A stretch of DNA of 64,000 nt, taken from Streptomyces niphimycinicus. Its GTDB lineage: Bacteria; Actinomycetota; Actinomycetes; Streptomycetales; Streptomycetaceae. The notes beneath the pieces are model-generated. The model was not told where the DNA came from and did not search any database. It worked only from the letters and a program-made list of their open reading frames with translations. Both the position numbers and the translations under genes were made by a program. Of the stretch, positions 1,380 to 18,735 are shown piece by piece (the stretch's first letter is position 1; the number at the start of each line of letters is the position of its first letter). The stretch is taken from assembly GCF_018883605.1 (NCBI RefSeq), contig NZ_JAHLEM010000036.1, positions 1-64,000 on the forward strand, given 5' to 3'.

Positions 1380-4300
1380 GTGAGCGAGACCAAGCTCCGC
1401 GACTACCTCAACAAGGTGACGACCGATCTGCACCGCACCCGTCTGCGCCTTCGGGAGGTGGAGGAGAAGAACCGGGAGCCCATCGCGATCGTCGCGATGA
1501 GCTGCCGCTTCCCTGGCGGGGTCAGCTCTCCTGAGGACCTGTGGCGCATGGTCGCCGACGGCGCCGACGGGCTCTCGCCGTTTCCGAAGGACCGCGGCTG
1601 GCACGAGGAGGTGTACAACCCGGACCCCGACAGTCAAGGCACGAGCTATGTGAACGAGGGCGGGTTCCTGCACGACGCCGCCATGTTCGACCCGGTGTTC
1701 TTCGGGATCTCCCCGCGTGAGGCGCTGGCGATGGACCCCCAGCAGCGGCTGCTGCTGGAGGCGTCCTGGGAGGTCCTGGAGCGGGCCGGCATCGACCCGC
1801 AGTCCGTCAAGGGCACCACCGGCGGCGTGTTCATGGGCGCCGCGTTCCAGGGATACGGCGCGGCCGGCCCGATCGAGGCCGAAGAGGTCGAAGGCCATCT
1901 GATGACGGGGCAGACGCCCGCCGTCACCTCCGGCCGGATCTCCTACGTCCTGGGTCTCGAAGGCCCCGCGGTGACGGTGGACACGGCGTGCTCGTCGTCC
2001 CTGGTGACGCTGCACCTGGCCGCGCAGGCGCTGCGCCAGGGCGAGTGCGACTTCGCCCTGGCCGGCGGCATCACCGTGATGGCAGGGCCCGGAACGTTCA
2101 CCGAGTTCAGCCGTCAGCGGGGACTCGCGTCCGACGGCCGCTGCAAGCCCTTCGCGGCGGCCGCGGACGGCACCAACTGGTCCGAGGGCGTCGGCGTGCT
2201 GCTCGTGGAGCGGTTGTCCGACGCCCGCCGCCACGGCCACCCCGTGCTGGCCGTGGTGCGCGGCTCCGCGGTGAACCAGGACGGGGCCAGCAACGGTCTG
2301 ACGGCCCCCAACGGCCCCTCGCAGCGCAGGGTGATCCGTCAGGCGCTCGACAACGCGGGACTCGCTCCGGACGATGTCGACATCGTGGAGGCGCACGGCA
2401 CCGGCACCTCACTCGGCGACCCGATCGAGGCGCAGGCGCTGATCGCGTCCTACGGCCAGGACCGGCCGGCGGACCGGCCGCTGTGGCTGGGATCCATCAA
2501 GTCCAACATCGGCCACGCGCAGGCGGCGGCGGGTGTCGCGGGGATCATCAAGATGGTGATGGCCATGCGGCACGGCATCCTGCCCAAGACGCTGCACGTG
2601 GACGAGCCGACCCCGCATGTGGATTGGTCGGCGGGGGCCGTGGAGCTGCTGACCGAGGCCCGGCCCTGGCCGGAGACGGGCCGGCCCCGCCGGGCGGCGA
2701 TCTCCTCCTTCGCGATCAGCGGGACCAACGCGCACACCATCATCGAGCAGGCCACCGAAGCCGAGGAGCCGGAGTCGGACGGTTCCGGGGCGAAGGCTCC
2801 CCACCCGGTAGCCTCAGCCGTCGTGCCCTGGCTGCTCTCGGGCAAGGGCGAGGCCGCGCTGCGGGCGCAGGCCGAGCGGCTGTACGCACGTCTGACAACT
2901 CAGGACTCCGCCGAGGACGACGAGCTCGCGACGGCATCGGTGGCGGACATCGGCTACTCCCTGGCGGCGACCCGGTCGGCGTTCGAGCACCGCGCGGCGG
3001 TGATCGGCGAGGACCGCGAGAGCCTGCTGCGCGGCGTGCGCGCCGTGGCTCAGGGCGAGGTGACCCCGGGCGTGGTCAGGGGACAGGCCGCGAAGGGACG
3101 AAGGACCGCCTTCGTATTCCCGGGGCAGGGCGCGCAGTGGGTGGGCATGGCGGTGGGGCTGCTGGACTCCTCGCCGGTGTTCGCGGAGGCGATCGGCGAG
3201 TGTGAGGCGGCCCTGTCGGCTCATGTGGACTGGTCGCTGACCGAGGTGCTGCGCGGGACCGAGGGCGCCCCCGGCTATGACCGGGTGGATGTCGTTCAGC
3301 CGGCGTTGTTCGCGGTGATGGTGTCGCTCGCGAAGCTGTGGCGTTCGGTGGGCGTGGAGCCGGACGCGGTGATGGGTCACAGCCAGGGTGAGATCGCGGC
3401 GGCCTGCGTGGCCGGCGCGCTCTCGCTGGAGGACGCCGCGAAGGTGGTGACCCTGCGGTCGCAGGCCATCGCGAGGGGCCTTGCGGGCCGTGGCGGCATG
3501 GTGTCGGTCGGACTGCCGGCGGATGAGGTCAAGGAGCGCATCGCTCCCTGGGACGGTGCGATCTCGGTCGCGGCGGTCAACGGTCCGGGATCCGTCGTGG
3601 TCTCGGGTGACCCGGGTGCGCTGGATGAGATGGTGGCGCAGTTGGAGGGTGAGGAGGTGCGGGTCCGCCGGGTTCCGGTGGACTACGCCTCGCACTCGGC
3701 ACATGTGGAGTCGATCCGCGAGGAGCTGCTGAAGGTCCTGGCGGACATCGCGCCGCGTACCTCCCAGGTGCCGTTCTACTCGACGGTGTCCGGCGAGGTG
3801 ATGAACACGGCGGGTCTGGACGCGGAGTACTGGTTCCGGAACCTGCGGCAGACGGTCGAGCTGGAGTCCACGACGCGCACCCTGCTCGATGCGGGCCACA
3901 CCATGTTCATCGAGGTGAGCCCGCATCCGGTGCTGACCCTGCCGGTGCAGCAGACGGTGGAGGCCGCCGAGTCGCGGGCGGTGGTCGCGGGCACCCTGCG
4001 GCGTGATGAGGGCGGAACTGAGCGGTTCCTGACCTCCGCCGCCGAGGTTCACGTCAGTGGCGTCGGTGTCGACTGGCCCAAGGTGTTCGCGGGACATGGC
4101 GCCCGTCGGGTCGATCTGCCCACCTACTCCTTCCAGCGTCAGCGCTATTGGCTGGACGCGATGGCGGCCGGCGGCGACGTGGGTTCGGTGGGCCTCGGCG
4201 CGGTGGCGCACCCCATGCTGAGCGCCGCGATCTCGCTGGCCGGCGGCGGCGGAGTGCTGCTCAGCGGGCGGCTGTCGATCGCCACCCACCCCTGGCTCGC

Positions 4301-7300
4301 CGACCACGCGGTGCAAGGCGTGGCGCTGGTGCCCGGGACGGCCTTCGCGGAGATGGCCGCACAGGCGGGAGACCAGGTCGGATGCGGCCGGGTCGATGAG
4401 CTGGTGCTGGTGGCGCCGTTGGCGATGCCCGAGCGCGGAGGGGTGCAGATCCAGGTCGAGGTGGGGGAGGCCGACGCCTCCGGCCGCCGCGACGTCAGCA
4501 TGTACTCACGGCTGGAGCCGACCGACGACAGCGCCGACCTCGAGCAGCCGTGGGTGCAGCACGCTCACGGTGCGCTCACCCCGCCCGCGCCGGCGGCCTC
4601 CTTCGACTTCGCGAAGTGGCCGCCCTCCGGCGCCAAGCCCGTCGACGTCTCCGGCGGCTACGAGCACGCCGAGGAGCACGGGCTGTACTACGGTCCCGCG
4701 TTCCGGGGCCTGCGGCGCGCCTGGAAGCGCGGTGACGCGGTGTTCGCCGACGTCGAGCTGCCCGAGGACCAGCACGGCGTGGCGAAGTACTTCGGTCTGC
4801 ACCCGGCCCTGTTCGACGGCGCCCTCCAGGCGATCGGCGCGAACAACGCGCTGCGCGGCGGCGAGGACGCACCGAGCGCGGGCAATCTGATGCCGTTCTC
4901 GTGGCGGGGCTTCTCCCTGGAAGCCGTCGGTGCCCAGGCGCTGCGGGTCCGGGTCGTCCCGGACGGGCGGCAGGCCGTGTCGCTGGCCATGGCCGACTCC
5001 TCGGGCCGCCCGGTGGCCACCGTCGATTCCCTCCTCTTCCGGCCCATGCAGGCCGCCGCGTTGCAGAGCATGAGCCGGACGGCCGGTGAAGCGTTGTTCC
5101 GCATGGAGTGGACGGCGGACGGGGCCAAGCCCGCCGAGGGCGTGGCACCCGGCTGGTGGGCGGTGCTGGTCGACGACTGCCTCGGCGTGGGCGACGCTCT
5201 GGAGGCGGCGGGCTTCTACCCCGCCGACGTGTACCCGGACACCGAGGCGCTCAGCGACACCGTGGCGGCGGGCACGAGCATGCCCGGCATGGTGGTACTG
5301 CCGGTCGCGTCGAGCGGCTCCGATGTGGTGGACGAGGTCCACACACGGGTCGCCGAGGTGCTGGAGACGGTTCAGTCGTGGGTGGCGGACGACCGGTTCG
5401 CGGAAATCCCGCTGGTGGTGCTGACAAAGGGTGCCGTCGACACCGGCGACGGTGTGGGGGATCTGTCGGGTGCGGCCGCATGGGGTCTGGTGCGGTCGGC
5501 GCAGTCCGAGCACCCGGGACGGGTGGTGCTGGTCGACACGGATGATGTCGAGGGTGCGGTGGGACTTCTCGGCGGGGTGGTGGCCACTCGTGAGGAGCAG
5601 GTGGTGGTGCGTTCGGGCGAGGTCCGCGTGCCACGGCTGGCCCGCGCCCTGCCCGCGGGTGACGCCCCCGAGTCGGAGGTGTTCGGATCCGGCGCGGTGC
5701 TGGTGACGGAGGGCGTGAGTGTTCGGGGCGGTCTGGTGGCCCGGCATCTGGTGGCACGGCACGGTGTCAAGAAGCTGGTGCTGCTGTCGCGTCGTGATGC
5801 GGAGACGGACGGCGCGGCCGAACTGCGGGCCGAATTGGAGGCCGCGGGCGCCGCAGTGGTGGTCACGACGTGCAACCCCGCGGACCGTGACGCGCTTGCC
5901 GCGGTGCTGACGGGACTGCCCGCGGAATTCGCGCTGAGCGCCGTGGTGCATGCGGACGAGATGCTGGACGACGCGCTGTTCGCATCGCTGACACGCGAAC
6001 GGGCGAGCGCGATGCTGCGGACGAAGGTGGACGCGGCCTGGAACCTGCACGAGCTGACCGCGGGCATGGACCTGTCGGCGTTCGTGCTGTTCTCCTCGAC
6101 CGCGGGTCTGCTCGGAGCGACCGGACAGAGCAACTACGCCGCGGCGAACGTGTTCCTGGACGGCCTCGCGTCGTGGCGTCGCACTCGGGGACTGCCGGGT
6201 GTCTCGCTTGCGTGGGGCCGGTGGGCCCAGGACGCCGACGTGGCACAGTCCGAGCAGGAGATGATCGACAACTGGCGTTACCAGGTGTCGTGGAAGCCGG
6301 TCCCGGACCCGGCCCGGAGGTCACTGTCGGGGACCTGGCCGGTGGTGGTTCCGGCGTCCCGCGCCGGGGACGAGCTGGTCGCGGAGGTCGTCGCCGGGCT
6401 CGAGCGGCACGGCGCGCAGGTGGTCTCGGTCGTGGTGGACGAGCGGGACCTCGATGCGAGCGTGCTCGCCGAGCGGCTGCGCGAAGTGGCCGGACAGGCG
6501 CCCGAACTGGGCGGTGTGCTCTCGCTGCTGGCCCTGGACGAGGAGCCCTGCCCGGCGCACCCGGCCATGCCGAACGGCTACGCGTTGAGCCTGGTGCTGG
6601 TGCGGGCCATGGTCGAGGCGAGGATTCCGGCCCGGCTGTGGAGTGGTACGCGAGGGGCCGTCTCGGTGGACGGTTCGGAGCGGCTCACCAGCCCGGTACA
6701 GGCGATGGTGTCGGCGCTGGGCCGGGTGGCCGCGCTGGAGCTGCCGCCGCTGTGGGGTGGTGTGGTCGATCTGCCCGAGTCGCTGGACGAGCGCGGTGCG
6801 GAGCGGCTGGCCGGTGTGCTGTCCGTCGAGGGCGGCGAGGACCAGGTCGCGGTGCGCGGCTCCGGTGCCTTCGTACGCCGTCTGGTGCGCTCGGCTCCGC
6901 CCGTCGCAAAGGGAACGGCGTGGCGCCCGCGAGGCACCGTGCTGGTGACCGGTGGCACGGGAGGGCTGGGCGGTGAGGCGGCCCGGTGGCTGGTGCGCAA
7001 GGGCGCTGAGCACCTGGTGCTGACCAGCCGTCGGGGCCCTGAGGCGCCGGGCGCGGCCGAACTGCGCGAGGAGCTGGAGAAGCTGGGTGCCCGGGTGACC
7101 GTGGCGGCCTGTGATGTGGCCGACCGTGAACAACTGGCCTCGGTGCTGGCCGCGGTGCCGGAGGAGTATCCGCTGACGGGGGTGGTCCACGTGGCGGGCG
7201 CCACCGGCGGGACGCCTCTGCTGGAGACCGGCTTGGCCGATGCCGCCACCCTCGTGTCGGGCAAGGTGGCGGGTGCCGTCAACCTGGACGCGCTGCTGGG

Positions 7301-9134
7301 CGACCGGGAACTCGACGCGTTCGTGGTCTTCTCGTCCATCTCCGGTCTGTGGGGCAGTGGCGGCCTGTCCGCCTACAGTTCCGCCAACGCCTATCTGGAC
7401 GCGCTGGTGGAGGATCGCCGCGGGCGGGGACTCGTCGGCACCTCCGTGGTCTGGGGCCCCTGGGCCGAGATCGGCATGGCGGCCGGGGACGACCAGGGCG
7501 AGCACCTGGAGCGGCGTGGGCTGCCCCGGCTGGCGCCACAGCCGGCGATGGCCGGTCTGGAGCGCGTCATAGCGGATGACGACGGTGTGGTGACGGTCGT
7601 GAACGTGGACTGGGAAAGGTTTGTTCCCGCGTTCACCGCGGGCCGGCCCAGCCCCTTGCTGAGCGATCTTTACGAGGTCCGACGGCTGGACGCGGCGTGG
7701 AACGACGCCGCGCGCACCGGTCTGGCGCCCCTCACCTCCGACGAGGGCCTGGAGCTCTTCGACGCCGGAGTCACCTCCGGCACGGCCGTGGTGATTCCGG
7801 CCCGGCTGGACGTGGCCGCGCTGCGCGCGCAGGGCGCCGCGCTGCCCGCCGTGTTCCGTCCCGTCGTCCCGGAGGCCCCCGTCCGGCGTGCCGCTCGGGC
7901 GGCGGAGTCCGAGGTGGACCAGCCCACTCAGCTACGGCAACGGCTGGCGGGGTTGTCGGAGGCCGAGAGGGACGAGGCTCTTCTCGAAATGGTGCGTACC
8001 GTCGCCGCCGCGGTGCTCGGGTTCGCATCGCACAACGACATCGACACCGGCCATGAGTTCATGGAGATGGGCTTCAACTCCCTTACGGCGGTCGAATTCC
8101 GTAATCAGCTAGCCGCCCTCACCGGCCTCAGGCTGAACACCACGGTCGTCTTCGACTACCCGAGCCCGGGCGAGATGGTGGCCCATCTGCGCCCCCGGCT
8201 CGCGGCCGAGATCGCGTCCGCTCCCGGCGTCGGCCAGGTCCAGGAGCAGACCGCTCCGGCCGCTGTGGCCGCCGCGCCCGTGGCCGAGCCCGTTTCCCCG
8301 GCACCGCAGGGGAACGCGCCCGACACCCTCGGCTCCCTCTACCGGCTGGCGGCCCAGCAGGGCAAGTCCAGTATCGGCATGGAGCTGCTGGTGAGCGCGG
8401 CAAAGCTCCGTCCGACCTTCGAGGACCCGGCCGACTTCGAGGGGAACATCAGGCCCGCGCGGCTCTCCCGGGGCCCCGGGCGTCCCCGGCTGATGTGCTT
8501 CGCCTCCCATGTCGCGCTGGGTGGCGTCCACCAGTACGCGCGGTTTGCCGCACCGTTCCGCGGCAACCGGGACGTGGCGGCCCTTCACACCGTGGGGTCG
8601 GTCGAGGGCGAGAGCCTTCCGGCCAACCTGGACGCGCTGTTCCGCCTGCAGGCGCGGGTCGTCGCCGAGTACGCCGAGGGCGCCCCGATCGTCCTGTGCG
8701 GCTCCTCGGCCGGAGGAATGCTCGCCCACTCGGTGGCCGCCGCTCTCGAGAGCCAGGGCACACCGGCCGCGGGAGTCGTCCTGATGGACACCTACCTTCC
8801 GTACACCACGAGGCTCGGCGGGGGAGTCGCGGACGCCTGGCTGGACGAAATGTACGAGCGGGAAGAGGTCGTCTCCATGGAGGGCGTCCGGATGTCCGCC
8901 ATGGGCTGGTACGCGCACCTGATGGAGGGGTGGAAGCCGCCGGAGATCTCGGTTCCCAGCCTCCACCTTCGTGCGTCGGAGGTGTCGGCGGACCCGAACG
9001 CGCCGGCGGAGACATGGCAGGCCGACTGGCCCGCCGACACCGTCATCGACGTGCCCGGAAATCACTTCACCATGATGGAGAACTACGCGGACACCACCGC
9101 CCAGGCCGTCGAGGACTGGGTGGCCGACCTCTAA
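1380..9134 (+). CDS. Type I PKS, terminal module: KS-AT-DH-(KR with nested KR)-ACP-TE
   Basis: The 2584-residue protein starts at a GTG with a short N-terminal coiled-coil docking segment. The KS has Cys204, His339 and His379. The AT has Ser668 in GHSQG and YASH at 769-772, both pointing to methylmalonyl-CoA. The DH is intact by motif (His976 in HxxxGxxxxP, Asp1146). The first KR has an LDD motif and YAAAN (Tyr1586), but its cofactor loop reads TEGVSVRGG (about 1443-1451) instead of TGGTGGLG, so it is probably dead. A second, complete KR (about 1618-2109) interrupts it; this one has an intact TGGTGGLG, Trp1991 eight residues before Tyr1999, and no LDD, which is the A-type pattern. The ACP serine is 2234 (GFNSL). 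The thioesterase has Ser2443 (GSSAGG), Asp2470 and His2562, so this enzyme releases the finished chain, probably by cyclisation or hydrolysis. Confidence 0.95.
6231..7706 (+). other. Complete A-type ketoreductase nested inside a degenerate KR
   Basis: Residues about 1618-2109 of the terminal PKS are an entire KR. Its left edge ([11 protein letters not shown], from residue 1631) looks like the structural-subdomain start of a KR that normally follows an AT. Its right edge ([14 protein letters not shown]) looks like the normal end of such a KR. On both sides lie the halves of another [11 protein letters not shown] before it, and [18 protein letters not shown] after it. The same two segments are nearly contiguous in the KR of the upstream PKS, as SLAWGMWEQ and, after about 16 residues, [18 protein letters not shown]. 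This is therefore an insertion into a KR rather than a simple tandem duplication. Confidence 0.85.
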
Positions 9135-9246: not shown

Positions 9247-12200
9247 GTGAGCAGCATGTTGCGCGGGTCCAGCGACTCAGGCGAGTCCGGAATCCAGGCT
9301 GGGCCGGATTGCGGCGAGAGCCCAGGCGAACTTCCTTCACTCGCACCGGACTTCAGGGAACTGCCGGATCTCGAACAGCGCAGGGTCCTGTTCGACCTGG
9401 TACACGCACACGTCGCCGCGGCGCTGCGGTCCGAGTCACCGCGCACCCTCGACGCGGAGAGCTCCTTCCTCGACCTGGGGCTGGACTCGCTCGCGGCGGT
9501 CAATCTGCACCGCGGGCTGGTCGCCGCCACCGGGCTCACCCTCGATGTGTCGCTCGCCTACGACTATCCGACGCCCAGTGAGCTGGTGGACCACCTCCAC
9601 CGGAAGATCTTCCCCGTGGCCGGGGACGACACCGCTCCCGCGCGTGCCGTCGTGGGCTCGGACGACCCCATCGCGATCGTCGGGATGAGCTGCCGCTTCC
9701 CCGGTGGCGTCAACAGCCCCGAGGACCTGTGGAAGGTCGTCTCCGAGGGCGTGGACGCCATCACCCCGTTCCCCACCGACCGTGGCTGGGACCTGGAGGC
9801 GCTCTACAGCCCGGACCCGGACCAGCCCGGCACCAGCTACGCCACCGAGGGCGGGTTCATCCACGACGCCCCCGAGTTCGACGCGGAGTTCTTCGGCATA
9901 TCGCCGCGCGAGGCGCTGGCCATGGACCCGCAGCAGCGGCTGCTGCTGGAGACGAGCTGGGAGGTCTTCGAGCGGGCCGGTATCGATGTCACCAAGCTGC
10001 GGGGGAGCCGGACCGCCGTCTTCACCGGCGCGGAGCACCACGACTACGGACCCCACCTCCAGAGCACCAAGAGCGGCCTCGAGGGCTATGCGCTGACCGG
10101 CATCGCGGGCAGCGTCGCCTCCGGGCGCATCGCCTACACCTTCGGCTTCGAGGGCCCGGCGTGGACCGTGGACACCGCGTGCTCCTCGTCGCTGGTCTCC
10201 CTGCACCAGGCGGCGCACTCGCTGCGCCAGGGCGAGTGCGATCTGGCGCTCGCCACCGGTGTCGCCACAATGCCCACCCCGGGTGACTTCATCCTCTTCA
10301 GCCGCCAGCGCGGGCTCTCCTCCAACGGGCGCTGCAAGGCGTTCGGCGCCGAGGCCGACGGCACGTCGTGGGCCGAGGGCGTCGGCGTCCTGCTGGTGGA
10401 GCGGCTCTCGGACGCCCGGCGCAACGGCCACGAGGTGCTGGCCATCGTGCGTGGCACCGCCGTCAACCAGGACGGTGCCTCCAACGGTCTGACCGCCCCC
10501 AACGGGCGCTCCCAGCAGCGCGTCATCCGGCAGGCGCTGGCCAACGCCGAGCTGACCGCGGACCAGATCGACGTGATCGAGGCGCACGGCACCGGCACCT
10601 CGCTCGGTGACCCCATCGAGGCGCAGGCGCTGATGGCCACCTACGGCGAGAGCCGCCCCGAGGGGCAGCCGGTCTGGCTGGGGTCCCTCAAGTCGAACAT
10701 CGGCCACACCCAGGCGGCGGCCGGTGCGGGTGCCGTCATCAAGATGGTGATGGCCATGCGGCACGGCATCATGCCCAAGACGCTGCATGTGGAGGTGCCG
10801 ACCCCGCACGTGGACTGGTCGTCGGGCGGCGTCGCGCTCCTCGCCGAGCAGCGCGCGTGGCCAAAGGACGGGCAGCCGCGCCGTGCCGGTATCTCCTCGT
10901 TCGGCATGAGCGGCACCAACGCACACGCCATCATCGAGCAGGCCCCGCCGCAGGAGCCCGTCTCCGCGAGCGACGACGCCGACATCGAGGAGACGGCGTC
11001 CCAGCCCATCTCCTGGCTGGTGTCCGCCAGGAGCGAGGAGGCGCTGCGGGCGCAGGCCGCGCGGCTGCGTGAGCATGTGGTGCGCGACCGCGACGCGAAC
11101 CCGGTCGACGTCGGATGGTCGTCCGCCGTGACGCGTGCCGCGCTCGAACAGCGGGCCGTGGTGGTGGCCTCCGACCGGGACGGGCTGCTGCGGGGACTCG
11201 CCGCGCTCGCCGAGGACACCGACGCGCCGGGCCTGGTGCTCGGCAGGTCCACGGCACAGCGGGTGGCGTTCCTGTTCACCGGCCAGGGCGCCCAGCGGAT
11301 GGGCATGGGCCGCGAACTCTACGAGACCTACCCGCTGTTCGCCGACGTATTCGACGAGGCGTGCGACTATCTCGAGGTCCGCCTCGGCACCTCCGTGCTC
11401 GACGTGGTGTTCGGCCCCGAGGACGCCGCCGACGCCGCGAGCGCGTCCGGTGACGAGCTGAACCAGACGATGTTCACCCAGGCCGGGCTGTTCGCCTTCG
11501 AGGTGGCCCTGTTCCGCCTGCTGGAGTCCTGGGGAGTGCGCCCCGACTTCCTGATGGGCCACTCGGTGGGCGAGATCGCGGCCGCACACGTCGCCGGGGT
11601 GCTGTCCCTGGAGGACGCGTGCGCCCTGGTCGCGGCCCGTGGGCGGCTGATGCAGGAACTGCCCGAGGGCGGCGCCATGGTGGCCGTCCAGGCGTCGGAG
11701 CAGGAGGTCCTGGAGAGCCTGAAGGGCCGCGAGGAGCAGGTGTCGCTGGCGGCGCTCAACGGCCCCACCTCGGTGGTGCTCTCGGGCGACGAGGACGCGG
11801 TGCTCGAACTCGCCGGCCAGTGGGAGGCACAGGGCCGCAAGACCAAGCGGCTGCGGGTGAGCCACGCGTTCCACTCGCCCCGGATGGACGCCATGCTGGA
11901 GGAGTTCCGCCAGATTGCCGACTGCCTGTTGTACTCGGCCCCGGCCATCCCGGTCATCTCCAACGTCACCGGCGATGTCGCCGGCGCCGAACTGGCCACC
12001 GCCGAGTACTGGGTCCGCCATGTGCGCGAAGCCGTCCGCTTCGACGACGGCATGCGCTCCCTCGCGGCCCAGGGAGTGACGACCTGCGTGGAGCTCGGCC
12101 CCGACGCCGTGCTGACCGCGATGGGCCAGGACTGCCTGGACGCCATCGACGCCGACGCGGCGTTCGTGCCCCTGGCCCGGTCCGGGCGCGCCGAGGCGCA

Positions 12201-15200
12201 GACGCTGGCGGAGGCCGTCGCCACCCTGTACACCAACGGCGTCGGCGTGGACTGGGACGCGGTGTATGCCGGGCGCGGCGCCCGCCGGGTCGGCCTGCCG
12301 ACCTACGCCTTCCAGCACAAGCGGTACTGGCTCGAGGCGGGCGGCGCCGTGACCGGCGATGCCCGCAGCGTCGGACTCGGCCGGGTGGACCACCCGTTGC
12401 TCGGCGGCCTCACCGAACTGGCCGACGGCGAGCGCACCGTGCTGACGGGGCGCCTCTCCCTCCAGACGCACCCGTGGCTCGCCGACCACGCCGTGGCCGG
12501 CGGAGTGCTCTTCCCCGGCACCGGATTCGTGGAACTGGGCCTGCTCGCGGGCACCGAGACCGGGGCGGGGCGGCTCGGCGAACTCACCCTCGAGACGCCG
12601 CTGCTCCTGCCGGAGCAGGGTGGCGTCCGGATCCAGCTCGTGGTCGGCCCCACGGACGAGTCCGGAGTGCGGCCGCTCGGCGTGTACTCGCGCTCCGACA
12701 GCGACGAGCCGGGCGAGGAGTGGGTGCGCCACGCCCAGGGTGTCCTCGAGGCGGACAGCGGCGCCGCGGTCACCGACAGCCTGCTCCAGTGGCCCGTCCC
12801 GGGCGCCGAGCAGGTGCCGATGGAGGGCTTCTACGAGGGCCTGGCCCAGGTCGGTTACGGATACGGGCCGGTCTTCCAGGGCCTGGAGTCGGTCTGGCGG
12901 CTGGACGGCGATGTCTTCGCCGAGGTGGCGCTGCCGGACTCGGCGGCCCAGGAGGCCGGACGATTCGGCCTGCACCCCGCCCTGCTCGACGCCGCCCTGC
13001 ACGCCATGGAGATGGGCGACTTCGGCGGCGAGAGCGGGCGCGTGACGCTGCCGTTCTCCTTCACCGGGGTGACCCTGCACGCGGTGGGCGCCGGACGGGT
13101 GCGGGTGCGGCTGCGCCCGCAGGGCAAGGACACGGTCGCACTGCTGGTGACCGACGCCACGGGTGAGCCCGTGGCCTCGGTGGAGTCGCTGGTGGTGCGC
13201 GAGGTGGCGCCCGAGCGGTTCGCCTCTGGTCCGCGCTCCACCGGCGGCGACGGAACGCTGTTCCGGGCCAACTGGGATGTCTTCCCCGCCGCGCGGGGCG
13301 CCGGCCTGAGCGTGGACGGTGTGTCCGCGGCGGTCATCGGTGCCGATCGGGCGCGGGCGGGCGAGCTGCTCGCCGCCGCCGGCGTCGAGTACGCCGAGTA
13401 CGAAGGGACGGACGCGCTCGTCGCCGCCATCGACGAGGGCGCCGCGCTGCCGGACGTGGTCTGGGCCTGGTGCGGCGCCACGCCCGCCGGGCCGGAGGCC
13501 GGGGACCTCGCCGAGGCCGCGCGGAAGTCGACCCACCGGGCGCTGGCCCTGGTGCAGTCCTGGCTGGCGGAGGACCGGTTCGAGGGCTCCCGGCTGGTGG
13601 TGGTGACCAGCGACGCGGTCGCGACCGGTGCGGGCGAGGGCCTCGCCGGACTGTCCAATGCCGCCGTGTGGGGACTGGTGCGCTCGGCGGCCACCGAGAA
13701 CCCGGGCCGGCTCGTGCTGGTGGACGTCGACCGCCACGCCGAGTCGGCCACCGCTGCCGCCGGCTTGGTGACGGCCGCCATCGCGGCGGGCGAGCGCGAG
13801 GTGGCCGTTCGCGTGGGCCAGGGGCTGATTCCCCGGCTCGCCCGGAACGCCGCCGGGCGGGTGCTCGAGGCCCCCGCCGGCACCTCCGCGTGGAAGCTGG
13901 GCACCAGCGGCGGAGGCACGCTGGACAACCTCTCGCTCCAGCCCGACCCGTCGGCCGAGGCGCCGCTGGCCCCCGGGTACGTCCGGATCGCGGTGCGCGC
14001 CGCCGGTCTGAACTTCCGGGACGCGCTGATCGCCATCGGCATGTACCCCGACGACCACGCCACCATGGGTGGCGAGGGCGCCGGTGTGGTCCTGGAGGTC
14101 GGCCCGGGAGTCACCGACCTGGCACCCGGTGACCGGGTCATGGGCATGATCAACGCATCGTTCGGGCCCATCGCGATCGCCGACCGGCGGCAGATCGTCC
14201 CCATGCCGCGCGGCTGGACGTTCGCGCAGGGCGCGTCGGTGCCGGTGGTCTTCCTGACCGCCTACATCGGCCTGGTGGAACTCGGCAAGCTTCAGCCGGG
14301 CGAGTCCATCCTCGTGCACACCGCCACCGGCGGGGTGGGCATGGCGGCCACGCAACTCGCGCGCCACCTCGGCGCCGAGGTGTACGCCACGGCCAGCCCC
14401 GGCAAGTGGGACACCCTGCGGGCGATGGGATTCGACGAGAAGCACATCGCCTCGTCGCGCGACCTGGAGTTCGAGCGGCGCTTCATGGAGGCGACCGGCG
14501 GCCGGGGCATGGACATGGTCCTGGACTCGCTCGCCCGCGAGTTCGTCGACGCCTCCCTGCGGCTGATGCCCAGGGGCGGGCGCTTCCTGGAGATGGGCAA
14601 GATCGACGTGCGCGACCCCGAGGTCGTCGCCGCCGAGCACCCCGGGGTGAAGTACGAGGCGTACGACCTGGTCGTCGCCGACTACGACTGGGTCCAGCGG
14701 ATGCTGGTCGAGCTGGTCGCCCTCTTCGACAGCGGTGCGCTGCTCCCCCTCCCGCTGACGGCGTGGGACGTGCGCCGGGCCCCGGACGCGATCCGGCACA
14801 TCAGCCAGGCCCGCCACATCGGCAAGAACGTGTTCACCATGTCCCACGGCCTCGACCCCGAGGGTTCGGTGCTGGTGACCGGTGGCACCGGCGGCCTGGG
14901 CAGCGAAGTGGCGCGCCATCTGGTGGCCGAGCACGGGGTGCGCAACCTGGTGCTGGTCTCCCGGCGCGGGCCGGACGCGGCGGGCGCCGCCGAGCTCAAG
15001 GCCGAACTGGCCGAGGCGGGCGCGTCGGTGACGCTGGCGGCCTGCGACGTGGCCGACCGCGCCTCGCTGGAGCGGGTGCTGTCCGCGGTGCCCGCCGAGC
15101 ACCCGCTGACCGCGGTCGTGCACGCGGCGGGCGTACTCGACGACGGTGTCATCGACACCCTGTCGCCGAAGCGCATCGACGCGGTCTTCGAGCCCAAGGT

Positions 15201-16164
15201 CGACGCGGCGTGGAATCTGCATGAGCTGACCCGCCATCTGGACCTGGCTCAGTTCGTGATGTTCTCGTCCGTCGCCGGTGTGTTCGGCAGCCCGGGACAG
15301 GGCAACTACGCCGCGGCCAACGCGTTCCTGGACGCGCTCGCCGCACACCGGCGCACCCTCGGCCTGCCCGCCGTATCGCTGGCCTGGGGTCCGTGGGAGC
15401 AGGGCGGCGGCATGACCGGCACGCTCAGCCAGGCGGACATGGTGCGCATGGCGCGCGAGGGCATGGCGGCCCTGTCCATGGCGGGCGGTCTGCGCCTGCT
15501 GGACGCCGGCCGGACGGGCGAGGACGCCCTGCTGGTGCCGATGCGGCTGGAGACCGCGGCGCTCAGCGGCCAGGCCGACATCCCCACCCTGCTGCGCGGT
15601 GTGGTCCGGGTGCGGAGCAAGGCGGCGGCCGACGGCAAGGCCGCCGCTCCCGAATCGGCCAAGGTGAAGCTGGCCGGTCTCTCCGGGGCCGAACTCGACC
15701 GTGCGCTGCTGGACCTGGTGCGCGGCAGTGCGGCGATGGTGCTGGGGCACAGCGGAGCCCAGTCCATCGAGCCCGACCGCTCGTTCCAGAACCTCGGGTT
15801 CGACTCACTGGCGGGCGTGGAGTTCCGTAACCGGCTGAACTCGGCCACCGGACTCCGCCTCCCCTCCACGCTGATCTTCGACAACCCCACGCCCGCGGCG
15901 CTCGCCGAGTACCTGCGCAGCCGGGTGGCGACGGACGGCCCGGCCGAACCGGACGTCGATCCGGAAGAGGCCAGGATCCGTGCCGTTCTGGCGTCGATTC
16001 CGCTGGAGCGGCTGCGCCGCGCCGGTCTGCTGGACACGCTCACGGAGCTGGCGAGCGGCAAGGACCAGGCGGAGAAGGACACCGAGGAGAAGGAGACGGA
16101 CTCCATCGACGCGATGGACGACGACGACCTGATCGACATGATGCTCGGAGATCTCGACTCCTGA
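9247..16164 (+). CDS. Type I PKS, loading ACP plus fully reducing module: ACP-KS-AT-DH-ER-KR-ACP
   Basis: The 2305-residue protein has a GTG start preceded by AGGAG five bases upstream; an ATG nine bases later is worse placed. It begins with an ACP (Ser81 in GLDSL) and has no docking helix, which suggests a starter unit is loaded directly on it. The KS follows with Cys312 and His447. The AT has Ser773 in GHSVG and HAFH (873-876), predicting malonyl-CoA. The DH has His1081 and Asp1248. The ER has the NADPH motif [10 protein letters not shown] (from 1691). The KR has TGGTGGLG (from 1878), LDD (1964-1966) and Tyr2021, B-type. The second ACP has Ser2187 in GFDSL. The product after this module should be the starter extended by a saturated two-carbon unit. 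The acidic C-terminal tail, with an IDAMDDDD stretch, is a docking domain, so the chain moves on to a PKS not in this window. Confidence 0.95.
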
Positions 16165-16285: not shown

Positions 16286-17722
16286 ATGACCGCAAAGCTC
16301 TTTACGACGGAAGCGGTGTACACGCTTCCCGAGTTCGAGCAGCGGGCCCTGGGCATCGCCGACGCGCTCCGCGAGCGTGGCGTCAGCGATGGCACCCGGG
16401 TCATGCTGAAGGCGGGCAACTCCGCCGGTTATGTGGCGGCCCTCCTCGCCCTGATGCACGTCGGCGCGTCGATCGTCATGGTCGACCACCAGGAGCGGGC
16501 GGAGGCGACACAGCGCATCTGTGACCGGGCCGGCGTCAAGATATGCGTGGTCGACGACGACACCCCGATGCCCGAGAGCGGCCCGGCCCGGGTCACCGTC
16601 TACGAACTGCTCGTGGCGGGCATGGAGCAGTCCCCCGCCGAGCGGCGGCTGTCCCTGGACACCTGGTGCGAGCTGCCCGACGGCATGATCATGTGGTCCT
16701 CCGGGTCCACCGGGGAGCCCAAGGGCGTCGTCAAGACCGGGGCGAAGTTCCTGAAGAACCTGGAGCGCAACGCCGAGCAGGTGGGCCACCGCTCCGACGA
16801 CGTCCTGCTGCCGCTGCTGCCCTTCTCCCACCAGTACGGGCTGTCCATGGTGCTCATCGCCTGGCTGGTCAAGTGCTCGCTGGTCATCGCGCCCTACCGG
16901 CGTCTGGACCGGGCGATGACCATGGCGGGCACCTGCGGGGCGACGGTGGTCGACGCCACCCCGGCCAGCTACCGCAGCATGCTCAACATGATGGGCCGTA
17001 AGCCCGCCCTGGCGGATGAGCTGTCCGGTGTCCGGATGTTCTGTAGCGGGGCCGCCCCGCTGGACCCCGGCCTGGTCGGCGACTACGTCAAGAAGTTCGG
17101 GCTGCCCCTGCTGGACAGCTACGGCAGCACCGAGGCCGGAAACGTGGCCTTCGCGACCGAGGACAACGTCGTCGCCTGCGGGCGGGCCGTCCAGGGCCTG
17201 AAGCTGCGGATCGTGGACGACGAGGGCACCGCCCTCCCCTCGGGCGAGGTCGGGGAGATCCAGGTCCACTCGCCCGACCTGATGGAGGGCTACCTCGCGG
17301 TCGACGGCACGGTGGCCCCCGTCGACCCGGACAAGACCGACTGGTACCCCACCGGCGACTTCGGCTATCTCGACGGCGGGGACAACCTCTTCGTCCTCGG
17401 CCGGAAGTCCGCGGTGCACCGCAACGGTCACACGCTCTACCCCGAGATCATCGAGCACAAGCTGGCCGCGGGCGGCTGCCTGGTCAAGGTCGTGCCCGTC
17501 CCCGACGAGCAGCGCGGCTGCCAGTTGGTGTTCTTCGTGGAGGACGAGCAGCAGCGGGAGTCGCGGTTCTGGCGGGAGCCGATCGGCGACCTGCTGCCCG
17601 CCTTCGAGCACCCCAACCGCATTCATGTCCTGGAGCGATTCCCCCTGAACCGCAACGGCAAGCCCGACAAGCGACAACTCGAGCAGCTCGCTCTCGACCT
17701 GGCACCCGGAGCGAAGGCATGA
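16286..17722 (+). CDS. AMP-forming acyl ligase (adenylation enzyme), probable starter-unit activator
   Basis: The 478-residue protein is an ANL-superfamily adenylating enzyme. It would activate a carboxylic acid with ATP as the acyl-adenylate and then pass it to CoA or a carrier protein. Visible core motifs are SSGSTGEPKG (138-147), SYGSTEAG (278-285), YPTGD (354-358) and the C-terminal catalytic lysine in NGKPDK (Lys459). It is shorter than a typical acyl-CoA synthetase, mainly at the N-terminus. It lies between a PKS with an N-terminal ACP and a coupled free acyltransferase, which strongly suggests it supplies the polyketide starter. The substrate cannot be read from the sequence by eye. 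Amino- or guanidino-acyl starters are activated by similar free ligases in other Streptomyces macrolide clusters, but that is only an analogy. Confidence 0.88.
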   Translation: MTAKLFTTEAVYTLPEFEQRALGIADALRERGVSDGTRVMLKAGNSAGYVAALLALMHVGASIVMVDHQERAEATQRICDRAGVKICVVDDDTPMPESGPARVTVYELLVAGMEQSPAERRLSLDTWCELPDGMIMWSSGSTGEPKGVVKTGAKFLKNLERNAEQVGHRSDDVLLPLLPFSHQYGLSMVLIAWLVKCSLVIAPYRRLDRAMTMAGTCGATVVDATPASYRSMLNMMGRKPALADELSGVRMFCSGAAPLDPGLVGDYVKKFGLPLLDSYGSTEAGNVAFATEDNVVACGRAVQGLKLRIVDDEGTALPSGEVGEIQVHSPDLMEGYLAVDGTVAPVDPDKTDWYPTGDFGYLDGGDNLFVLGRKSAVHRNGHTLYPEIIEHKLAAGGCLVKVVPVPDEQRGCQLVFFVEDEQQRESRFWREPIGDLLPAFEHPNRIHVLERFPLNRNGKPDKRQLEQLALDLAPGAKA

Positions 17723-18735
17723 CAGAGCCACAGACCCCCGAGCCCCAGACCCCCGAGTCCCGGGCGGAGTCACAGCCGGGCCGCACGGCGTTCGTCTTCC
17801 CCGGGATGGGCCCCTTCCGCTTCACCGACGTGGGCGAGTTCCTGCTGACCAACCCCCATGCCCGGCGCCGGCTCGCGATCGCCGACGAGGTGGTGGGCTA
17901 CTCCGTCTTCGACCGCTACCGCCAGTCGGACGGCGATGAGGAGGGGCAGTACGCCGCCCACACCCAGATCGCCTTCCTGACCGTCTGCCTCTCCCTCGCC
18001 GACTGGGCGGAGGAGACGCTGGGAGAGAAGCCCGAGCTGTGCGCGGGCCCGAGCTTCGGCCAGCGGGCCGCGGTGACCTACGCGGGGTCCCTGCCGTTCG
18101 AGGAGACCGTACGGCTCACCGCCGAGCTGGCCCGCTGCGAGGAGGAGTACTTCGCGCGGGAGCACCGTGAGGCGGTCACGCACTGCGTGATCCACACCCC
18201 CGAGGAGAGCCTGCACAAGGCGCTGGGCGAACTGGACGACGAGGGGGAGTGGCACGACGTCTCCGGCTATATCGACCGGGGCTTCTACCTCGTGTCCCTG
18301 CGCGAGCCCGTGCTCGACCGGTTCAAGAAGCGGATCGGCGACCTCGGCGGCTACAACATGTACACCATGTGGCCGCCGGTGCACGCCCCCTCGTTCGGCG
18401 ATCTGCGCCGCAAGGCGGAGGAGGAGGTCTTCGGCGGCTTCGAGCTGGCCGACCCCAAGCTTCCGGTCGTCTCCGACCAGAACGGCGCGCTGCTGACCGA
18501 CGCGGAGGGGGTGCGCACCATGCTGCTCGACACCTTCAACTGCCCGATCCGCTGGCCGGACATGGTGGAGACGATGCGGGGCAGCGGCATCACCAAGATC
18601 TGCATCTCGGGCCCGGACAATCTCTTCGGCCGGGTGAACAGCACCGGGGAGAACTTCCAGGTCCTGGCCATCGACGCCCGCAAGGCGATGCGCCCGCGCG
18701 TCCGTCAGAGGAGCGCTCGCCGGGCGCGGCGGTGA
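17719..18735 (+). CDS. Discrete acyltransferase (malonyltransferase fold) with GPSFG nucleophile motif
   Basis: The start overlaps the ligase stop codon in ATGA, so the two are translationally coupled. The 338-residue protein has the FabD-type layout: an FVFPGMG motif near residue 31, a nucleophile Ser112 in GPSFG, and a likely catalytic His222 in PPVHAPSF. Most ATs have GHSxG, so the histidine before the serine is replaced by proline. There is no fused ACP. It probably moves the ligase-activated starter onto the N-terminal ACP of the preceding PKS. A role as a trans extender AT is less likely because the PKS modules seen here have their own intact ATs. The arginine-rich C-terminus (RPRVRQRSARRARR) is unremarkable. 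Confidence 0.85.
   Translation: MTEPQTPEPQTPESRAESQPGRTAFVFPGMGPFRFTDVGEFLLTNPHARRRLAIADEVVGYSVFDRYRQSDGDEEGQYAAHTQIAFLTVCLSLADWAEETLGEKPELCAGPSFGQRAAVTYAGSLPFEETVRLTAELARCEEEYFAREHREAVTHCVIHTPEESLHKALGELDDEGEWHDVSGYIDRGFYLVSLREPVLDRFKKRIGDLGGYNMYTMWPPVHAPSFGDLRRKAEEEVFGGFELADPKLPVVSDQNGALLTDAEGVRTMLLDTFNCPIRWPDMVETMRGSGITKICISGPDNLFGRVNSTGENFQVLAIDARKAMRPRVRQRSARRARR

Follow-up and report, generated by a model that had tools for sequence, protein, structure and literature searches.

A ketoreductase nested within a ketoreductase

The DNA analyzed here, called the window, is a stretch of 64,000 nucleotides (nt) at the start of contig NZ_JAHLEM010000036.1 of Streptomyces niphimycinicus (assembly GCF_018883605.1), and our subject is its terminal polyketide synthase (PKS) gene at positions 1380 to 9134, which like every feature described below lies on the forward strand. 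The open reading frame and Pfam matches define a protein of 2,584 amino acids (aa), numbered from the GTG at 1380, that has the domain order ketosynthase (KS), acyltransferase (AT), dehydratase (DH), an outer ketoreductase (KR) enclosing an inner KR, acyl carrier protein (ACP), and thioesterase (TE). By Pfam, the AT (Acyl_transf_1) occupies 3111 to 4064, with a YASH motif at nt 3684 that we take to be of the methylmalonyl type; the DH occupies 4209 to 5066 and keeps its catalytic His (nt 4305) and Asp (nt 4800) motifs; the ACP lies at 7992 to 8189 and the TE at 8493 to 9119.

The outer KR begins with a structural subdomain at 5091 to 5684, placed by alignment and an SpnB_Rossmann match, and continues with a catalytic subdomain at 5685 to 6230 that runs as far as the strand SLAWG. 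The Gly loop, starting at nt 5685, and the HADE motif are broken in this subdomain, and LDD (aa 1529) and Tyr1586 are kept. Just past SLAWGRWAQ (aa 1609 to 1617; nt 6204 to 6230), within the lid loop, is the left junction (6231 to 6262), where host residues beginning WAQDADVAQ abut MIDNWRYQV of the insert. The inserted KR, about 481 codons at 6261 to 7703 with edges known to within about 12 nt, has its recognizable start, WRYQVSW, at aa 1632 and consists of a structural subdomain (6273 to 6932) and a catalytic subdomain (6933 to 7673) with its Gly loop at aa 1854, Lys (SGK, nt 7257), Ser (FSSISGLW, nt 7329), Trp1991, Tyr1999, and Asn. It has no LDD and would be A1 type by a motif that we presume to separate A1 from A2. 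Beyond it, the tail of the outer KR (7704 to 7895), delimited by alignment with single-KR orthologs, supplies the end of the lid with ARTGLAPL (aa 2111; nt 7710), the GLELFD helix, and the last strand VVIPARLD. The Pfam KR family (PF08659) matched both domains far above its cutoff of 22.6 bits, with 164.2 bits for the outer (5691 to 6227) and 200.9 bits for the inner (6933 to 7469). All motifs that a first-pass annotation of this DNA had named for the two KRs were found at their residues.

Comparison with orthologs decides between nesting and two KRs side by side. The C-terminal part of the gene (window 8160 to 9131, mainly TE), searched for in 391 genomes of the order, led to S. buecherae AC541, whose genome lies on one 8.4-Mb contig and encodes an ortholog of 2,121 aa in an open frame, with a single uninterrupted KR that has TGGTGVLGG, LDD, and a full lid. 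The window gene matches it at 87.3% DNA identity through nt 4846 of the coding sequence (CDS; window 6225), then not at all for about 1.5 kb, and once more, at 81.8%, over the remainder of the gene beginning at CDS nt 6340 (window 7719). Because the match resumes there, the segment after the second KR (from GLELFD to VVIPARLD) belongs to the outer KR as its tail. In a side-by-side tandem the first KR would be complete before the second; here the outer tail follows the inner KR, and the two outer halves rejoin as one domain when aligned with single-KR orthologs. The first-pass annotation had placed the second KR inside the first and had named assignment of the downstream segment to the second KR as the observation that would overturn this; the alignment put that segment with the first. 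It is thus confirmed that one complete KR is nested inside another, neither by chance nor as a tandem.

Both the site and the piece are well defined. An AlphaFold model of the insert-free ortholog (mean predicted local distance difference test [pLDDT] score of 66.7), used solely for locating the loop, shows the site as a low-confidence loop (380 to 388) between the SLAWG strand (370 to 375) and a helix (389 to 396). The inner piece resembles end to end the KR of AmphI (PDB 4L4X), an A1-type KR of a DH-less module, with full catalytic and cofactor motifs, the Trp, and no LDD; phmmer aligned residues 2 to 484 of the 486 aa (E value of 3.8e-119), and therefore a complete folding unit moved. Motifs and alignment agree with the earlier description: the host KR is B type and its NADPH motifs are broken, and the A-type KR lodged in it is intact and bounded like one from a DH-less module. 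KRs of DH-less modules naturally stand between the post-AT linker and the ACP, whereas this one stands within another KR. Six orthologous terminal DH-KR modules, that of S. buecherae AC541 and five others, share the gene, domain order, and flanks but have one intact B-type KR, an uninterrupted lid, and no insert. A whole catalytic domain is likewise nested in a KR in the KRs-ER-KRc arrangement of the neighboring PKS (9247 to 16164); there the enoylreductase (ER) lies between the KR subdomains and the KR motifs are intact, whereas by alignment and model the present insert lies in the lid loop after SLAWG, within the catalytic subdomain, is itself a KR, and sits in a host that has lost its NADPH motifs.

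Distribution of the insert and condition of the two domains

The nesting was found in seven genomes: the window, four Streptomyces genomes denoted G652, G503, G457, and G434, S. violaceusniger NBRC 13459 (locus L097, with the same insert at the same place in the lid loop), and S. hygroscopicus NBRC 13472, in which the left and right junctions are on two separate contigs. The insert was searched for in 392 Streptomyces genomes, two candidates being scored in each; 11 genomes passed, with identities of 96% in G652, 90% in G503, and 88% in G457, and the G434 insert (87%) came to light when the terminal gene there was read. In all four, the insert lies in the terminal gene. The terminal genes of G499, G559, G560, and G631 stand outside our counts, and G642 is the S. 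iranensis record. Two short TE patterns, run against the species-genome collection, matched 14 loci. Three genomes of the same clade are insert-free (S. rugosispiralis, S. endocoffeicus, and S. sabulosicollis), and six outgroups have an empty site and a single intact B-type KR (S. iranensis, S. antioxidans, S. zinciresistens, S. lasiicapitis, NRRL B-1347, and S. buecherae). Left out of the counts were Actinomadura (L100) and Nocardia (L102), with 43 to 48% TE identity and an insert-free site, and S. philanthi (L099), whose copy of the terminal PKS is broken and likewise insert-free at that position. A junction pattern of SLAWG-type codons followed 36 to 66 nt on by WRY-type codons matched 4 of the 392 Streptomyces genomes, all in this clade, and missed G652, one of the five known positives in that set; confined to this junction, the same pattern matched the window alone in 296 genomes of the class.

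The S. niphimycinicus assembly is a draft of 1,378 contigs, and the contig begins within a KR, which would be fitting circumstances for an assembly artifact in a repetitive PKS. We give that explanation virtually no credence, since the same nesting in six further genomes, two of them single contigs (G652 of 10.4 Mb and G503 of 12.0 Mb), refutes it, and the 40 candidates scored in the S. niphimycinicus genome included no identical copy of the insert, the next best reaching 82%. The first-pass annotation had left room for a misassembly, which seven assemblies effectively exclude. The nested KR is real and conserved. Five of the six fully read insert-bearing genes have an open frame, including that of G457 (2,588 aa), a genome close to S. 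violaceusniger. The S. violaceusniger NBRC 13459 assembly has frameshifts in the cluster (L097, L133 to L137) that throw the terminal PKS out of frame at its KS and TE; none occurs in the terminal gene of G457.

The two KRs differ consistently in condition. An active B-type KR should have an intact NADPH motif, LDD, and an uninterrupted lid; the outer KR keeps LDD, but its Gly loop reads TEG for TGG and its HAAG reads HADE in all seven insert-bearing genomes, and its lid is interrupted. Ser and Tyr are both kept in five of the seven, as would fit a C2-type KR that has lost its NADPH site; the catalytic Ser is missing in G652, as are Tyr and Asn in S. hygroscopicus. Redox-inactive C1- and C2-type KRs resemble the outer KR in that the NADPH site is lost and the fold apparently kept; we know of none described as bearing an inserted KR. 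The KRs of the six outgroups have TGG throughout and HAAG (five) or HATG (one). In the inner KR, the Gly loop, CDVAD, HVAG, Lys, Ser, Trp, Tyr, and Asn are intact and LDD is missing, as in an A-type KR, in all six genes fully read, the S. hygroscopicus contig ending before the inner motifs. The LDD and Trp rule for KR type follows PMC5331325. The three insert-free members of the clade (L089, L091, and L101) have a damaged terminal KR, with HADE in all three and TEG in two and with the lid truncated and nothing in its place.

Origin, history, and probable chemistry of the insert

The closest non-inserted relative found for the insert, which the first-pass annotation had proposed to look for, lies in the same gene cluster. 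The best match in the S. niphimycinicus genome, with 40 of 664 first-look candidates scored, was at C711:4978-6408, with 82% DNA identity over the whole insert. Contig C711 belongs to the same cluster, because it is collinear with S. buecherae at about 90%, and other DH-less KRs of the cluster, in other genomes, also reached 82%; these DH-less A-type KRs are the nearest non-inserted relatives found. In a tree of 34 KR blocks, built without the inserts of S. hygroscopicus, G652, G503, G457, and G434, the inserts of the window and S. violaceusniger paired (100/100) and were sister (85/100) to seven orthologs of the C711-type module, termed module X, lying outside them. The donor would thus be a relative of module X, and a recent copy of module X itself was rejected on the same ground. 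GRINS-mediated gene conversion, which often leaves two parts of one PKS more than 90% identical, with skews above 25% (PMC10394414), was likewise rejected, the values here being 82% identity, a GC skew of 0.16, and an AT skew of -0.15. A plasmid search listed ten places at 47 to 61% identity, and none among the matches listed was nearer than the orthologs.

The insert starts at what is the end of the post-AT linker in a DH-less module, and donor-type homology runs from nt 6263. In G503, the host sequence flanking the insert rejoins into the insert-free lid of S. sabulosicollis, GGGCGGGAC and then GATGTGGCG, which gives a clean pair of filled and empty sites. Short matches between host and donor-type sequence, CGxGAC at the left and, in some, GACGxTG at the right, suggest joining at microhomology. 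The insert predates the split between the window and S. violaceusniger, because its DNA identity between them (87.0%) is like that of its flanks (87.6% and 88.4%).

We consider it moderately probable that the complete A-type KR in the lid loop does the reduction, with the outer KR as a shell that has lost NADPH, and that the product keeps a 3-hydroxyl. On this reading, the B-type KR native to the terminal module received, in its flexible lid loop, a copy of a complete A-type KR whose source was a DH-less module akin to one of this assembly line. This would have happened in an ancestor within what we call the S. violaceusniger clade, most likely once, and the insert would have been kept since. 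The outer KR would no longer bind NADPH and would persist as a folded shell holding the module together. The inner KR, judged by its motifs, would carry out an A1-type reduction to a (2R,3S)-2-methyl-3-hydroxy chain, the DH would stand idle on the A-type alcohol though its catalytic residues are mostly kept, and the TE would release a chain bearing a 3-hydroxyl at the position of the 2,3-alkene in relatives.

Several observations weigh against parts of this reading. AlphaFold modeled the nested region poorly (mean pLDDT of 50.3), which bears on the folding of a shell around the insert. The ratio of nonsynonymous to synonymous substitution (dN/dS), taken over non-independent pairs, was 0.29 for the catalytic part of the outer KR (21 pairs), which exceeds the 0.20 of intact KRs (15 pairs); the DH part gave 0.26 (21 pairs), the catalytic part of the inner KR 0.36 (15 pairs), and the insert-free damaged KRs 0.48 (3 pairs). 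By these values the outer catalytic part is still under purifying selection, which lends weak support to a shell kept folded. The DH His and Asp are intact in six of the seven insert-bearing genomes, so that a Z-alkene is possible, and the lineage of the three insert-free clade genomes with a damaged KR must do without the reduction or do something else. A single insertion is assumed, yet two changes of the insert are needed on a tree of the DH-to-TE region and three on a KS tree, which intermixes S. iranensis and S. zinciresistens with the ten clade members.

The conflict between the two trees points to recombination within the gene. On the DH-to-TE tree the ten-genome clade is firm (100/100) and its three insert-free members form one lineage (100/100), with a base that lacks resolution. 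Approximately unbiased (AU) tests gave p = 0.04 for the seven insert-bearing genes as one clade; a grouping of G503 with the three insert-free genes was not rejected (p = 0.44), and one of S. hygroscopicus with them was rejected (p = 0.01), results that we do not treat as proof of insert loss. Two orders of events are compatible with this: insertion first, followed by one clean loss, or decay of the KR first and insertion later, with some exchange between lineages. The earlier suggestion that a KR was dropped into a dead one therefore stands in part: the outer NADPH motifs are broken in all seven genomes, but death before insertion, though possible, is unsupported, as the three insert-free members are damaged too and the trees fit both a lineage that never had the insert and one that lost it.

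That suggestion also held that the insertion seems to have switched the stereochemistry of the last hydroxyl, and here the outgroups point elsewhere. All six insert-free orthologs have an intact B-type KR and a DH with its His and Asp, and for this ancestral pair a 2,3-alkene is expected by standard rules, so that the likely change is from an alkene to a 3-hydroxyl, or to a Z-alkene. A Z-2,3-alkene would arise if the inner KR made an A-type alcohol that the still intact DH converted, as retention of the two DH residues in six genomes would allow; the first module of phoslactomycin, with an A-type KR, is cited as giving a cis alkene in PMC5331325. The same source has the DHs of DEBS and Tyl refusing A-type alcohols, and in the terminal DH of S. 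hygroscopicus (L138) the catalytic His has become Gln (ADQTVQG), beside an outer KR that is itself short of catalytic residues, as expected if dehydration is no longer needed. We regard the Z-alkene as unlikely, though it deserves some weight, and a terminal unit that keeps its 3-hydroxyl, in place of the 2,3-alkene of single-KR relatives, as the most likely outcome suggested by these motifs. Four residues past the DH Asp, the clade has Gln and the six outgroups have His.

The remaining Ser and Tyr of the outer KR raise a further alternative, in which the NADPH-less outer domain would epimerize the 2-methyl of the 3-keto chain, like C2-type KRs, before the inner A1-type KR reduces it. The YASH motif of the AT in all seven genes would provide the methyl group, and the outer catalytic part is constrained; against it are the loss of these residues in G652 and S. 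hygroscopicus, the interrupted lid, and an ancestor that looks B1 type by its DH partner, B1-type KRs being normally non-epimerizing. This division of labor seems improbable to us. There is a similarly slim chance that the nested pair is a two-step device drawing a new stereochemical outcome from two old domains, with the KR lid loop as a natural graft site for whole domains that leaves the module unbroken. We think it very improbable that the module is simply decaying, the insert being tolerated and unused and the terminal β-carbon left unreduced or the cluster silent. The frameshifts in the S. violaceusniger terminal gene and the KR damage without an insert in three genomes would fit decay, but the open frames elsewhere, with the G457 gene intact, the complete set of inner motifs in all six genes, and the inner dN/dS argue against it.

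A search of the open-licence literature, with subscription journals mostly outside its reach, returned no account of one KR lying within another, the papers nearest to this in wording proving unrelated; treatments of PKS recombination in PMC9899208 and PMC5663706 are not decisive for the present case. The usual picture of PKS domain exchange is replacement, and here a domain was added inside one of its own kind. An insert conserved in seven genomes, together with the empty site in relatives, amounts to a natural experiment on changing a reductive step, and the lid loop marks a place for grafting a whole catalytic domain, which bears on PKS engineering. Annotation as two KRs in tandem can conceal such nesting.

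Neighboring genes and variation among orthologs

The neighboring PKS, whose single KR served as a reference, follows the terminal gene; it has the order ACP-KS-AT-DH-ER-KR-ACP and an ortholog in S. buecherae (G173) and is probably the first module of the line. Downstream of it are an AMP-binding ligase (16286 to 17722) and a stand-alone acyltransferase (17719 to 18735) that probably load the starter (16286 to 18735 together). In the family searches of the other open reading frames of the window, these two alone were informative, and many of those queried had no match. The first multienzyme of the azalomycin and kanchanamycin marginolactone PKSs, a loading ACP with the first extension module according to PMC4737276, resembles the neighboring PKS, and PMC5082578 gives the marginolactone starter as guanidinobutyrate derived. 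The starter-loading-type genes of the present cluster (loading ACP, ligase, and acyltransferase) may fit such a line, which would have a 4-guanidinobutanoyl starter and a large macrolactone product, and the parts of these two papers that were covered mention no nested KR.

At its other end, the window starts inside the KR of an upstream PKS (1 to 1329), and therefore the remainder of the assembly line lies on further small contigs, C711 and C1309 among them. In the PKS preceding the terminal one, G173, G503, and G652 (L061, L151 with L156, and L157) have no extra module, whereas S. violaceusniger (G391; L137) has an additional KS-AT-KR module of A type, as does G434 by its fragment (L154). The terminal AT has itself been swapped among orthologs whose flanks are still orthologous, as seen for window 3184 to 4098 (CDS 1805 to 2719) against L093 to L096 and, by motif only, L092. 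Its motif in the window clade is YASH (but HASH in S. rugosispiralis); S. buecherae shares YASH, and the five other outgroups have HAFH. We take HAFH to be of the malonyl type, and the terminal unit of those five would therefore differ in the methyl group too.

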